64,000 nucleotides of DNA from positions 310,001 through 374,000 of the forward strand of contig JADGMX010000041.1 in NCBI GenBank assembly GCA_015234525.1, written 5' to 3'. This document shows, piece after piece, positions 4,055 to 61,544 of this stretch. The first letter of the stretch is position 1; the number at the start of each line of letters is the position of its first letter. The notes under the pieces are model-generated. The model was given only the letters and a program-made list of their open reading frames with translations, made no database searches and had not been told where the DNA came from. Source of the stretch: Flavobacterium sp. (GTDB taxonomy: Bacteria > Bacteroidota > Bacteroidia > Flavobacteriales > Flavobacteriaceae). The position numbers and the translations under genes are program-made.

Positions 4055-4084
4055 AAGCTACTTTCTTTCGGAAGTAGCTTTTTT
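4055..4084 (+). terminator. Intrinsic terminator after rpmB-rpmG-DUF4295
   Basis: AAGCTACTTtctttcgGAAGTAGCTTTTTT hairpin plus T run. Confidence 0.85.
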
Positions 4085-4104
4085 AATTTATATATTTATC
4101 GTTT

Positions 4105-4206
4105 GGAGCTATTCCCGCTTTCCGTTGCAATCTTTTTTGCTCAAATGATGCCGTAATCCGGGAATTCTCAAAAAGCAAAAAAGGATTTCCACTGCAATCG
4201 GGGCTA
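4105..4206 (+). repeat. Family A intergenic palindromic repeat
   Basis: GGAGCTATTCCCGCTTTCCGTTGCAATCTTTTTTGCT...AGCAAAAAAGGATTTCCACTGCAATCGGGGCTA. Confidence 0.75.
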
Positions 4207-4218
4207 GGAGTAAGATGT

Positions 4219-4396: not shown

Positions 4397-5377
4397 ATGA
4401 ACTTCTTTAAAAAAATATTTTCCTCAGATAAAAAAGAGACAAACATTACAGAGGAGGCGAAGCAGTCATTAGACAAAGGACTTGAAAAAACAAAAAGCAG
4501 CTTTTTCTCGAAACTGACGAAAGCTGTAGCGGGAAAATCTAAAGTCGACGACGAGGTTTTGGACAATCTCGAAGAAGTTTTGGTATCGTCGGATGTGGGC
4601 GTTGAAACCACCCTTAAAATCATTAAACGGATTGAAAACCGCGTTGCCGAAGATAAATATCTCGGAACCGACGAACTCAATTCGATACTTCGGCAGGAAA
4701 TTGCAGGTTTGCTGTCTGAAACCAATACCGGTAATTCGACAGAATTTGAAATTCCCAAAGACAAAAAGCCCTACGTAATTATGGTAGTTGGCGTAAACGG
4801 AGTTGGAAAAACAACCACCATCGGAAAACTTGCCAATCAGTTTACAAAAGCTGGCTATAGCGTTGTTTTGGGAGCTGCCGATACGTTTCGCGCCGCTGCA
4901 ATCGATCAGTTGCAGATTTGGGCTGATCGCGTTGGCGTGCCGATCGTAAAGCAACAAATGGGCAGCGATCCCGCTTCAGTGGCTTTTGATACCATTCAGC
5001 ATGCGGTCTCGCAAAACGCCGATGTGGTGATTATTGATACTGCAGGCCGACTTCACAATAAAGTGAATTTGATGAATGAGTTGACCAAAGTTAAACGTGT
5101 GATGCAAAAAGTGGTTGCCGATGCGCCACATGATGTTCTTCTGGTTTTAGACGGGTCGACCGGACAGAATGCGTTTGAACAAGCAAAACAGTTTACCGCC
5201 GCAACCGAAGTAACCGCGTTGGCAGTGACCAAACTCGACGGTACGGCTAAAGGCGGTGTTGTAATCGGTATCTCGGATCAATTCCAGATTCCGGTGAAAT
5301 ACATCGGAGTCGGTGAAGGCATCAACGATCTTCAGGTATTCAATAAATATGAATTTGTAGATTCTTTCTTTAAGTAA
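4397..5377 (+). CDS. ftsY: Signal recognition particle receptor FtsY
   Basis: VVGVNGVGKTTTIGKLA...DTFRAAAIDQL...IDTAGRLHNK...LDGTAKGG. Confidence 0.97.
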   Translation: MNFFKKIFSSDKKETNITEEAKQSLDKGLEKTKSSFFSKLTKAVAGKSKVDDEVLDNLEEVLVSSDVGVETTLKIIKRIENRVAEDKYLGTDELNSILRQEIAGLLSETNTGNSTEFEIPKDKKPYVIMVVGVNGVGKTTTIGKLANQFTKAGYSVVLGAADTFRAAAIDQLQIWADRVGVPIVKQQMGSDPASVAFDTIQHAVSQNADVVIIDTAGRLHNKVNLMNELTKVKRVMQKVVADAPHDVLLVLDGSTGQNAFEQAKQFTAATEVTALAVTKLDGTAKGGVVIGISDQFQIPVKYIGVGEGINDLQVFNKYEFVDSFFK

Positions 5378-5778: not shown

Positions 5779-5893
5779 GATCGGTAATTTGGTTGAATGG
5801 CTAAGATACGCTTTTCATAGCAGTTGAATCCCTTGCGTAGTTTGTGCTTTGGGTAAATGTTATTGTTATTAATAAAGCCTCAGCTTACGAATT

Positions 5894-5993
5894 TAGCCCG
5901 GATAGGAGCGGCATCCTTTTTTGCCATTTCCAGTTTTGATTGTGTGTTATTGCTCGAGGCAAAAAAGATATAGCGGATAGCCGGAATAGCTCC
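5894..5993 (-). repeat. Family A intergenic palindromic repeat
   Basis: TAGCCCGGATAGGAGCGGCATCCTTTTTTGCC...GGCAAAAAAGATATAGCGGATAGCCGGAATAGCTCC. Confidence 0.75.
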
Positions 5994-6027: not shown

Positions 6028-6438
6028 ATGAAGAAAATTTTATTTTTGGCGATGGCTTTTTTGGTGCTTTCGTGCAATGATCCAAAACCGATTGCGCTTG
6101 AGAAAATGACCGGTTATTGGGAAATTGAGAAGGTTGTTTTTGAAAGTGGCGATGAAAAAACTTACAAGATTAATGAAACCATTGATTATTTTCAGGTTGC
6201 TGACAGCGTCGGTTACAGGAAAAAAGTGATGCCACAATTTGACGGAACTTATCTTGAAAATGGCGATCTTGAGAACTTGACAGTCTACGGTAAAGACGGC
6301 CGAACGTTCCTGGAATATAAAAGTAAATTTGGCGGACACTCGGAAGAAGTTGTTGATTTGACTGATGAAAAATTAGTATTGCGAATGAATAACGCCGAGT
6401 ATCACTATAAAAAACCAATTCCGTTTTCGGTAAAATAA
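6028..6438 (+). CDS. Hypothetical lipoprotein
   Basis: MKKILFLAMAFLVLSCNDPKPIALEKMTGYWEIEKV; SPII-type lipobox LSCN. Confidence 0.8.
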   Translation: MKKILFLAMAFLVLSCNDPKPIALEKMTGYWEIEKVVFESGDEKTYKINETIDYFQVADSVGYRKKVMPQFDGTYLENGDLENLTVYGKDGRTFLEYKSKFGGHSEEVVDLTDEKLVLRMNNAEYHYKKPIPFSVK

Positions 6439-12925: not shown

Positions 12926-14281
12926 TTATTGCATGTTTACAGCAACATGACTAACCTCGTTCGGCAAAATTACAGCCTCGCCGTAAAGGTCAAATTCGGT
13001 TGCTTCGGTTATAAGAATATCGACAAACTCGCCGGTCTTTAAATATTGTTTGGTAGCATCAATCAAAACTTCGTTATCAACATCAGGACTGTCAAATTCA
13101 GTTCGGCCCACAAAGTGATTTCCTTCCTTACGGTCAATGATACACCTGAAGATTTTGCCAACTTTTTCCTGATTTAATTCAAATGAAATCTGCGACTGAA
13201 TTTCCATAATTTCATTAGCTCGTTGCTGTTTAACCTCTGCCGGAACATCGTCTTCAAGCAAGTACGCATGCGTGTTTTCTTCATGCGAATACGTAAAACA
13301 TCCAAGACGTTCAAAACGCATTTCTTCAACCCAATTCTTTAAAATCTGAAAATCTGCTTCAGTCTCACCGGGATAACCTACGATTAAAGTTGTCCGAATC
13401 GCCATTCCCGGAACAGCTTCCCTGAATTGTTTTAATAGTTTGGTAGTTTTGGCTTGAGTAGTCCCACGACGCATCGATTTTAACACCGAGTCCGAAATGT
13501 GTTGCAGCGGAATATCAATGTAATTGCAAATTTTCGGCTCCCGTTCCATCAGTTCCAAAACATCCATCGGAAACCCACTCGGAAAGGCATAATGAAGTCG
13601 GATCCATTCAATTCCCTCGACCTTCACAAGGTTTTCAAGAAGTTCAGCCAGATTCCGCTTTCCGTAAAGATCAAGTCCGTAATACGTAAGATCTTGTGCA
13701 ATCAGAATCAATTCTTTCACCCCGTTTTTCGCCAAACCTTCAGCTTCTTTTACCAATTTTTCAATCGGCTGAGAAACGTGTTTGCCACGCATTAACGGGA
13801 TCGCGCAAAAGCTGCATGGACGATCGCAACCTTCAGCAATTTTTAAGTATGCATAATTCTTTGGAGTAGTGGTCAAACGCTCGCCCAGAAGTTCATGACG
13901 ATAATCCGCACCAAGTGCTTTCAATAATAGTGGAAGCTCGGTCGTTCCAAAAAATTGATCGACATTCGGAATTTCTTTTTCCAAATCCGGACGATAACGC
14001 TCAGAAAGACAGCCGGTAACGAACACTTTATCTACAAGACCACGTTCTTTTTTATCCGCATATTCCAGGATCATATTCACCGATTCAGCTTTGGCATTAT
14101 CGATAAAACCACACGTATTTATAACAATGATATTTCCTTCATTTTCAGCCGGCGCTTCATGTTCAACATCTTTTCCACTTGCGCGCAACTGACCCATCAA
14201 CACCTCACTGTCGTAGACATTCTTCGAACATCCAAGGGTAATAACATTTATTTTATTTTTCTTTAAAGACCTGGCTCTCAT
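12926..14281 (-). CDS. rimO: Ribosomal protein S12 methylthiotransferase RimO
   Basis: INVITLGCSKNVYDSEVLMGQL...IAEGCDRPCSFCAIPLMRGKHVSQP. Confidence 0.95.
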   Translation of the reverse strand: MRARSLKKNKINVITLGCSKNVYDSEVLMGQLRASGKDVEHEAPAENEGNIIVINTCGFIDNAKAESVNMILEYADKKERGLVDKVFVTGCLSERYRPDLEKEIPNVDQFFGTTELPLLLKALGADYRHELLGERLTTTPKNYAYLKIAEGCDRPCSFCAIPLMRGKHVSQPIEKLVKEAEGLAKNGVKELILIAQDLTYYGLDLYGKRNLAELLENLVKVEGIEWIRLHYAFPSGFPMDVLELMEREPKICNYIDIPLQHISDSVLKSMRRGTTQAKTTKLLKQFREAVPGMAIRTTLIVGYPGETEADFQILKNWVEEMRFERLGCFTYSHEENTHAYLLEDDVPAEVKQQRANEIMEIQSQISFELNQEKVGKIFRCIIDRKEGNHFVGRTEFDSPDVDNEVLIDATKQYLKTGEFVDILITEATEFDLYGEAVILPNEVSHVAVNMQ

Positions 14282-14357
14282 TTATTTGTAAATTGGAGTG
14301 CAAAATTAGGCAATTATTTTGGCCCAACTTGGCTTTTTGCATTTTTTGTGATGATTA

Positions 14358-14434
14358 GGAGCTATTCCCGCTGTTCTCTTCAATCTTTAGTCGCGAACCC
14401 CGCGCCTAAAGGATTTCCGCTGCCATCGGGGCTA
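14358..14434 (+). repeat. Family A intergenic palindromic repeat with divergent but still paired apical stem
   Basis: GGAGCTATTCCCGCTGTTCTCTTCAATCTTTAGtcgcgaaccccgcgcCTAAAGGATTTCCGCTGCCATCGGGGCTA. Confidence 0.75.
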
Positions 14435-14491
14435 AAAAAATCCGTTCCATCAAAATATGAAACGGATTTAATAAATGTTCTTCAATGACTG

Positions 14492-15982
14492 TTATAGCTC
14501 GAAAACCAGCGACAAGCTTACATTGTTATTTACACTTTTGATCTCCGGCGCATCAACAAACCCCTGCGAAAAGATTGATTGCTCGAAATCCTGTTTTGCG
14601 TAAGAGTATGACAAATCAAGTCGGGTAGAGCCAAAATTGTAACCAATACCACCTGAATAGCCGGTAAGATCGCCAACAACTCGGCCATCTTTATACGGAC
14701 TTTCCACCATTCGGTAACCAGCTCTCAAACTGAACTGCTTGATTCTGTGTTCGGCTCCAATTCTAAGTTCGCCCGCAGTATCCAGCAAGTCCGACATCTG
14801 CGAATTTATAGCCTGGAAATACAAGTCTTCACTTGGTCTGAATTCTGTATTGCTGTAATCTTTAATGCTGTAATCAACACTAATTAGACTAGTGGTTCCA
14901 AATACATACGCCAAACTTCCTGTCCATTTCCCGGGTGTTTGCAACTTATAAACGTCGTAAACAATGGTAACTCCCGGATCAACGTATTCATTAAGTGATG
15001 CGCCATTTTCAACACGAACAGTTGAAATGTTTTGAGAAAGCTCGTCGTTAAGTCGGTACCAGGTCGGCGACTCATACGCCAAGCCAAATCTGAACTCGCG
15101 TGTTACTTTGGCAATCGCGCCAAGCTGGAACGAGAATCCCGATCCGTAGGTATAAAGGTCGTTGTTGAATCGCAACCGCTGAATTCCAGTCGTCGCATCG
15201 TTTGAATTTTGCTCGTAAAAACTAGTCGATTTTCTGTAATCGGTAAAATGCGAGTTAAGATTCAGACCAAAATAGATTTTATCCTTATACTGGGTTGCCG
15301 CATTAAACGAAAGTTTGCCATTGTATCCCGTTGATATCAGTGAGTTCTCTTGGTAGAAATTCCCGCCGGCCGGGACATTTGAAACATATCCGCTACCGCT
15401 TTCTGCCGGATCAATCAAATACGATTGATAACCTAAAAACGCCTGACCTGCGCCATACGAAAGTTCCTCGTAATAGAAATCTTGCAGGTCGGCAAGCGGA
15501 ATTCCGCCACCCTGATTTGCATAACTTAAAAAGTAGTTTGCAACCGAATTGTTCGGATTCATACCGGCACTGAAAACAGAATTGTCAAAGTCGTTTGTGT
15601 TTTCATACGCAACTCCGATTGAAAGTTTTCGCCAGTCGCTATCGGGATTGCTATTATTAAAAACAAAAACTGCCGCCGCTTGATTTAGATCAAAAGCTGA
15701 CTCTTTATCACTTTCTTTTGTTCCAAAATAATTGGATTCGTTCTTTTTATTATAACTGCTCAAGGTAAATCCTGCCTGGTTGTTGATGAAAACTGCTGAT
15801 CCGGCCGGGTTGACAGAAAGCGATGAAAAATCGCCCCCGAGCGCACCAAAAGCACCACTCATTGCCCGAAAACGAGCTGTTCCGTTTAGATTGTCGGTTG
15901 AATATCTGATCGCATCAGAAATTTCCTGTGACTGGGCACCTGTAATGCTTAGCGCCGCTATAAGTAATAATGTGCGTTTCAT
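14492..15982 (-). CDS. OmpP1/FadL/TodX-family outer membrane transport protein
   Basis: Signal peptide; ISDAIRYSTDNLNGTARFRAMSGAFGALGGDFSSLSVNPAGSAVF. Confidence 0.85.
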   Translation of the reverse strand: MKRTLLLIAALSITGAQSQEISDAIRYSTDNLNGTARFRAMSGAFGALGGDFSSLSVNPAGSAVFINNQAGFTLSSYNKKNESNYFGTKESDKESAFDLNQAAAVFVFNNSNPDSDWRKLSIGVAYENTNDFDNSVFSAGMNPNNSVANYFLSYANQGGGIPLADLQDFYYEELSYGAGQAFLGYQSYLIDPAESGSGYVSNVPAGGNFYQENSLISTGYNGKLSFNAATQYKDKIYFGLNLNSHFTDYRKSTSFYEQNSNDATTGIQRLRFNNDLYTYGSGFSFQLGAIAKVTREFRFGLAYESPTWYRLNDELSQNISTVRVENGASLNEYVDPGVTIVYDVYKLQTPGKWTGSLAYVFGTTSLISVDYSIKDYSNTEFRPSEDLYFQAINSQMSDLLDTAGELRIGAEHRIKQFSLRAGYRMVESPYKDGRVVGDLTGYSGGIGYNFGSTRLDLSYSYAKQDFEQSIFSQGFVDAPEIKSVNNNVSLSLVFEL

Positions 15983-25661: not shown

Positions 25662-25679
25662 TTTCAGTCCAATAAATAG

Positions 25680-25712
25680 AAAAAGTCATTCGAAAGAGTG
25701 GCTTTTTTTTAT
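25680..25712 (+). terminator. Intrinsic terminator after typA
   Basis: AAAGTCATTCgaaaGAGTGGCTTTTTTTT (two G.T pairs). Confidence 0.75.
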
Positions 25713-25799
25713 GCAGCTATTTCCTGCTTTCGCCTGTATCTTTTTTATTCTCGGCTAAAAGCCTCAAATAAAAAAGGATGCCGGCTCTATCAGGGCTGC
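25713..25799 (+). repeat. Family A intergenic palindromic repeat
   Basis: GCAGCTATTTCCTGCTTTCGCCTGTATCTTTTTTATT...AATAAAAAAGGATGCCGGCTCTATCAGGGCTGC. Confidence 0.7.
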
Positions 25800-25828
25800 T
25801 GTCGTAAGTTGTTTATGTGCTTTTTTAA

Positions 25829-51767: not shown

Positions 51768-51829
51768 CAAGCTAAAATATCGAGCAATATAGAAATTATA
51801 TAACAATAGTCTAAAATTATGTAACATTT

Positions 51830-51948
51830 GCATGAGCGATTGGAGCGGGAAAGCCCGGAGCTTGCGAGGACTTGCAGCGGAAAGCGCGACGGCCGGACCA
51901 CTTTACATCTTTAATAGCTTTTACTTGAAGGCCGGCATGCCCAAAAAA
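51830..51948 (+). repeat. Family B intergenic repeat, copy 2
   Basis: GCATGAGCGATTGGAGCGGGAAAGCCCGGAGCTTGCGAGGACTTGCAGCGGAAAGCGCGACGGCC...GGCCGGCATGCCCAAAAAATCG. Confidence 0.82.
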
Positions 51949-60562: not shown

Positions 60563-60644
60563 GGAGCTTGGTCCCGCTATCCGCTATATCTTTTTTCGGC
60601 CTGTCGGCACAAAAAAAGGATGCCGCTCCTATCGGGGCTAGAGC
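60563..60644 (+). repeat. Family A intergenic palindromic repeat (left of aroE)
   Basis: GGAGCTTGGTCCCGCTATCCGCTATATCTTTTTTCGGCCtgtcGGCACAAAAAAAGGATGCCGCTCCTATCGGGGCTAGAGC. Confidence 0.8.
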
Positions 60645-61391: not shown

Positions 61392-61460
61392 TTTACGGGT
61401 ATTAATCCACCAAAAGGTTCCAGATCAAAAGCGATTTGCGTTAAACGACCAATTTGGCCC

Positions 61461-61544
61461 TAGCCCCGATGGGAAGCGGCATCCTTTTTTGCGTGGAGTG
61501 TGCGAAATGCAAAAAAGATACAGCGGACAGCGGGAATCAGCTTC
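61461..61544 (-). repeat. Family A intergenic palindromic repeat (right of aroE, inverted)
   Basis: TAGCCCCGATGGGAAGCGGCATCCTTTTTTGC...GCAAAAAAGATACAGCGGACAGCGGGAATCAGCTT. Confidence 0.8.

Follow-up and report, generated by a model that had tools for sequence, protein, structure and literature searches.

The Flavo-1 motif was discovered in 2010 through comparative genomics, without an assigned function (Weinberg et al., 2010; PMC2864571). Rfam files the family (RF01705) under the type 'Gene; sRNA', and in one survey it was among the most abundant sRNA families (PMC9029176). In the F. psychrophilum transcriptome, Flavo-1 matches lay sense or antisense alike and many fell outside transcribed regions, and some 5' transcribed regions coincided with matches (PMC9723704). 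The searchable literature (most subscription journals lie outside it) held nothing that goes deeper into Flavo-1 than the papers cited here, and no description of its dispersal, of its one-strand pairing or of the absence of a known mobiliser. Flavo-1 as an object is thus already known, and because the family is catalogued in Rfam the repeat pattern described below is not new. Sequence and secondary structure are the same as those of RF01705; only the interpretation differs, in that we read the element as a dispersed hairpin with one special strand rather than as an sRNA gene.

The window analysed here is a stretch of 64,000 nucleotides from a Flavobacterium sp. genome. A first-pass annotation had proposed a hairpin at 14358-14434 as one of seven copies of a repeat. 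The hairpin proved real, and the RF01705 covariance model finds all seven repeats at 45.1-77.3 bits (Table 1), each above the curated gathering cut-off of 42 bits. The apical pairs that had been listed copy by copy were right for six; for the copy at 60563 the CGGCC/GGC pairing was incomplete, as a T run also pairs with an A run there. The loops are indeed unrelated within the window, but in the rest of the genome the same loop recurs in several copies. At the 14360-14437 copy, the T-tract of the neighbouring terminator-like hairpin leads straight into the 5' end of the element.

Table 1. Flavo-1 copies and adjoining features in the window (positions counted from its first letter).
Feature	Position	Strand	RF01705 match	Context or basis
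Flavo-1 copy of the first-pass annotation	14360-14437	minus	68.0 bits, E=9e-13	between the two genes listed next
rimO	12926-14281	minus		neighbour of the 14360-14437 copy
Membrane-protein gene	14492-15982	minus		neighbour of the 14360-14437 copy
Terminator-like hairpin of the 14492-15982 gene	14434-14469	minus		read from sequence; not reported by a simple scan
Flavo-1 copy, GCGTGAGGGAT variant	1886-1967	minus	45.1 bits	upstream of cinA; outer GCGTG/CACGC stem in the fold
Flavo-1 copy	4107-4209	minus	77.3 bits	between the rpmB-rpmG operon and ftsY
Intrinsic terminator of the rpmB-rpmG operon	4055-4085	plus		upstream of the 4107 copy; from sequence; conserved in relatives
Flavo-1 copy	5891-5991	plus	69.9 bits	37 nt ahead of a small lipoprotein-like gene (6028-6438)
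Flavo-1 copy	25716-25801	minus	56.1 bits	between convergent genes
Terminator of the typA-like gene (upstream)	~25679-25709			directly beside the 25716-25801 copy; read from sequence
Flavo-1 copy	60566-60643	minus	69.3 bits	13 nt past the stop codon of the 60657-61391 gene
Flavo-1 copy	61458-61541	plus	65.0 bits	between two minus-strand genes

A weak match below the cut-off (51825-51895, plus strand, 26.5 bits, E=0.24) has a layout, GCATGAGCGATTG...AAAGCGCGAC, that resembles the GCGTGAGGGAT variant, and is possibly an eighth, decayed copy. An outer GCGTGA/TCACGC stem marks the window copy at 1886-1967 and two copies in relatives (L142:9847-9921 and L117:9843-9920); it encloses the Flavo-1 hairpin together with a second hairpin, perhaps as a three-way junction.

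The genome from which the window comes (2.65 Mb in 49 contigs) carries at least 150 Flavo-1 copies, a lower bound because 150 of the 673 candidates were scored and every one lay above the cut-off; this corresponds to a mean of one copy per ~18 kb or closer. The element was found in all 18 other genus members of one set of relatives, with 4 to 101 matches each, and in 75 of the 81 near-complete Flavobacterium genomes sampled, G032, G034, G047, G072, G090 and G102 having no detected copy, and 14 control genomes gave no match. Two exact patterns found no match among 2.9 million viral contigs, and a similarity search found none in phage or plasmid records; spread via phages or plasmids was rejected on these results.

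The evidence for the fold is covariation. Folding energy alone is insufficient to show it, the z-scores of the seven window copies ranging from -5.2 to +0.4, with several unremarkable. From the window's own genome 124 copies were extracted, of which 36 were aligned to an 18-pair structure. In these 36, paired cells made up 96.6% (77.9% in shuffles), 117 cells had changed on both sides (32 in shuffles), and 13 of the 18 pairs had changed on both sides. None of 500 shuffles reached any covariation measure of the alignment, and sliding the partner by 1-3 columns lowered pairing to 43-55%; p-values are indicative only, because the copies share ancestry and their cells are not independent. The arms read 5' TAGCCC-X-GAT... 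and 3' ...AGC-X'-GGAAATAGCTYCT around an apical hairpin that can change freely. The pair in TAGCCC-X-GAT / AGC-X'-GG was found as C-G, T-A, G-C and A-T, and that in GAT-Y-G / A-Y'-AGC likewise in all four forms, and both arms gain or lose letters together (GGAAATCC with GATTGNAGC, GGCATCC with GATATAGC, GGTTATCC with GATAGTAGC). Because GNAGCGGA is present identically in both arms, two near-symmetric, purine-rich internal loops (GNA/GGA-type) flank a GC/GC step; mismatched as they are, both loops are conserved. An origin of the pairing in quasi-palindrome correction is disfavoured by the loops, which a simple palindrome-making mutation would not yield, and by the strand asymmetry described below. 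The first-pass claim that compensatory change maintains a hairpin, whether of RNA or of single-stranded DNA, holds within the genome and also among orthologues at the rimO locus. Part of the apical change is exchange of the whole hairpin as a block rather than base-by-base compensation.

Mismatches at paired positions are strongly asymmetric. Three alignments together held ~101 G.T or T.G but only ~12 A.C or C.A, a count that omits one column pair in which two structural classes stand in different register, and an alignment-free count gave 15 G.T versus 1 A.C. Such an excess shows that pairing is maintained in one strand, the one running from TAGCCC to TAGCT. One-strand pairing is compatible with RNA and single-stranded DNA alike, and is not the artefact of a symmetric palindrome. 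G.T is rare, at 37 of ~2,070 cells in alignment A3, where all Watson-Crick forms occur.

Flavo-1 is an intergenic element. By simple ORF calls, hardly any of the 121 placeable copies in the window's genome overlaps an ORF, and none a long one. Of the neighbouring gene pairs, 46 are tandem and run against the element, 23 are tandem and run with it, 25 are convergent and 27 divergent, so that in tandem settings antisense placement is twice as frequent as sense. With divergent pairs left out, the median distance to the facing stop codon is 17-48 nt. At 73 of the 121 copies, the placement is such that a transcript reading through from a neighbouring gene would not contain the folded strand. The upstream flanks of 119 copies show no promoter-like conservation; downstream there is a conserved GGAAATAGCTYCTRAAAA end, and the 3' end is rich in A. 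Antisense genes have their terminators abutting this 3' end in 22 of 124 copies, versus 3 at the 5' end, and shuffled flanks gave ~2 abutting terminators in total.

These surroundings bear on three alternatives. Positions close behind stop codons and beside terminators would suit a bidirectional transcription terminator or roadblock. The T and A runs, however, lie within the stem and neither strand has a T-tract after it, only one strand keeps the pairing, and divergent genes surround 27 of 121 copies, so that we regard this explanation as quite improbable. The first-pass annotation had rightly set the repeats apart from ordinary terminators: a GC-rich stem followed by a T-tract, as in an intrinsic terminator, is not what is found, since the T run is inside the stem, the other arm comes after it and the 3' end is A-rich. 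The trans-acting small RNA gene implied by the Rfam typing would account for the conserved structure, but at least 150 diverging copies per genome with no conserved promoter, no terminator T-tract past the fold, and inconsistent orientation and transcription make it extremely improbable. The A-rich 3' end, together with the antisense terminator T-tracts abutting it, could also indicate a short retroelement copied through RNA, its 3' end pairing with those T-tracts. Against this, reverse transcriptase went undetected in 33 of the 81 genus genomes, including the copy-rich G087 and G075, and the A tail is missing from some copies that share an apical hairpin. With no reverse transcriptase detectable in copy-rich genomes, we do not favour a reverse-transcribed element and judge it very improbable.

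Orientation relative to replication showed no overall bias in G010, G031 or G087. Among the 20 best-scoring copies in each of G010 and G087, 16 were minus in the first half of the contig and plus in the second; this skew is absent in lower-scoring copies and in G031, and the two genomes may share copies. As the subset was picked after inspection and position 1 was taken as the origin, the skew is only a lead.

Copies are retained at orthologous places. At the rimO locus, the 12 loci that match best among 150 genomes were compared, and 11 (those of 10 relatives and of the window's own genome) carry Flavo-1, its orientation unchanged throughout; this fraction overstates the rate of retention because picking best-matching loci favours conserved arrangements. 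The flanking genes there are only ~69-79% identical in DNA, and no close relative of the window's genome was found (~68-79% DNA identity at rimO). Among these orthologues 94.5% of cells are paired and both partners have changed in 11 of 17 pairs; most differ in the apical stem, and a terminator-like hairpin with a T-tract abuts the 5' end of the copy at nearly all of the loci. In the cinA region, compared over 80 loci, Flavo-1 recurs at three of the window's places in the window's orientation: upstream of cinA, between the ribosomal-protein operon and ftsY, and, in plus orientation in many relatives, ahead of a similar small lipoprotein-like gene. Certain species have a decayed copy or none at these three places. 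None of the absences examined was a clean empty insertion site, and those that could be read resembled deletions. At the same places the apical hairpin may be replaced as a block (L087 versus L091), and other palindromes, e.g. TCCCGA..TCGGGA, have been inserted. Other palindromes (AAACCTGACAGGTTT..., TCCCGA..TCGGGA) also occur inside Flavo-1 arms or loops (L095:9852-9949; L158, L147 and L139 near 14000-15000; L087:12079-12181), and such kinds are found beside RAYT genes as well.

Retention of this sort raises the possibility of a cis-acting RNA, that is, a hairpin in 3' ends or 5' leaders, for example protecting or processing transcript ends, that is kept locus by locus. Both the tolerance of G.U and long retention at fixed places fit such an RNA and so speak against a dispersed element. 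The wobble asymmetry is on the sense strand, orientation is fixed at orthologous loci, and some of the F. psychrophilum 5' transcribed regions overlap matches. Moreover, a separate terminator is rare in genes before a sense copy (3 of 39) compared with genes before an antisense copy (19 of 63; background 21 of 103). On the other side stand the prevalence of antisense over sense tandem copies (46 to 23), the lack of an upstream promoter, and the F. psychrophilum study itself, whose authors saw no orientation rule and many untranscribed matches. An RNA function is possible but not favoured, because there is no promoter, placement is often antisense and G.T is rare; we consider the cis-acting explanation rather unlikely.

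Copies with a common apical hairpin and unrelated flanks indicate that Flavo-1 disperses. The window's genome holds several such groups: C33:18870 and C33:22525 are identical over the element, with unrelated flanks, and a further group shares CTAATCCTGAAAGGTTAG. In G004, which has no detected RAYT, L292 and L297 share an apical hairpin in unrelated flanks, and G087, a single contig, has groups sharing CCTGCTTCTTTAGCAGG and CCGGCTTCTTTAGCCGG, again with unrelated flanks. Same-apex copies can differ in the basal X-X' pair, which may be due to compensatory change or to recombination between copies that replaced the central block; the A tail is not present in all of them. Some copies form pairs, minus then plus and 20 to ~200 nt apart, that resemble paired REPs (L206, L221, L234, L169).

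REP elements in enterobacteria and pseudomonads are mobilised by a RAYT (TnpA-REP) transposase, and high copy number, intergenic position and a one-strand hairpin would suit the same arrangement here. A search by PF01797, NF047646 and genomic context found a single RAYT gene in the window's genome, with two Flavo-1 copies within a few kb. Association was not borne out more widely: with 1.5-kb flanks, only 3 of 30 RAYT loci contained a Flavo-1 copy, the genome's own locus among them, as did 1 of an earlier set of 20 Y1 loci, so that the lead offered by the first-pass annotation, a Y1/TnpA-REP-like transposase, finds no support. Of 17 near-complete genus genomes in which no RAYT was detected, 14 still have Flavo-1, two of them with recent-looking copies, and in G087, with 97 matches, neither RAYT nor reverse transcriptase was detected. 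The elements also have no GTAG foot. The genome's RAYT carries the motifs NHIH/WQ/YIHLNP, which are of a type described for a RAYT subclass without REPs (PMC6006769), and it is flanked by another palindrome, GCGCAAAGTCTCCCGACTTTGCGC. Mobilisation by RAYT is accordingly improbable, its loci not being enriched and copy-rich genomes having none detected; reverse transcriptase fails as a mobiliser in the same way, being undetected in several copy-rich genomes. The 3' end of the single RAYT gene is duplicated (L032:2756-2914 and 4634-4792; 159 nt without a difference), with a Flavo-1 copy 14 nt in front.

Flavo-1, then, pairs in one strand, shares apices at unrelated places, is retained at orthologous places genus-wide and lies mostly close behind gene ends. 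We read it, with a probability of roughly one half, as a REP-like dispersed element, old and passed on vertically, that works as a single-stranded hairpin with one polarity. The most likely remaining mechanism would be a hairpin of single-stranded DNA handled by a host protein. Such a protein would recognise the Flavo-1 strand when it is exposed in replication or repair; copying would spread the element, and most surviving insertions would lie behind gene ends. A copy whose fold is lost might be removed either by the copying process or through loss of a local benefit. Whole-block exchange of apical hairpins also appears to occur, and would account for their change without loss of pairing. The fuller proposal, of a dispersing single-stranded DNA hairpin that is not an RNA gene, that spreads through a host mechanism as yet undescribed, needing neither RAYT nor reverse transcriptase, and that exchanges apical blocks as its arms co-evolve, is put forward only tentatively. 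The evidence suggests a small hairpin that is copied to new places in the chromosome instead of the small-RNA gene as which it is filed, and the sRNA label is doubtful. Should Flavo-1 prove to be such a dispersed hairpin of one strand, many of the 'sRNA genes' annotated in the clade would be misnamed, and the whole genus would carry an old repeat without a known mobiliser. Its hundreds of natural compensatory variants could also serve in the search for the protein that reads the fold.

Among known systems, REPs and REPINs are similar in how they work: Flavo-1 copies are likewise intergenic hairpins (~80 nt) that occur in high copy number, are kept vertically and disperse, and one of whose strands is special, so that the usual description of a REP as a high-copy intergenic palindrome with one special strand applies to them. 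Unlike REPs, they have a TAGCCC foot in place of a 5' GT[AG]G tetranucleotide, are not linked to RAYT and disperse in genomes without a detected one, and have a freely variable apical hairpin. Integron attC sites combine conserved arms with a variable apical part and are folded as DNA in one strand. Flavo-1 would work in a comparable manner, with its conserved arms, variable apex and one special strand, but no cassette arrays were seen and its copies are scattered singly through the genome. Group IIC introns insert behind intrinsic terminators, beside T-tracts. Flavo-1 resembles them functionally in its sites beside terminator T-tracts, and differs from them in having neither ribozyme nor reverse transcriptase and in that the terminators mostly face its 3' end.
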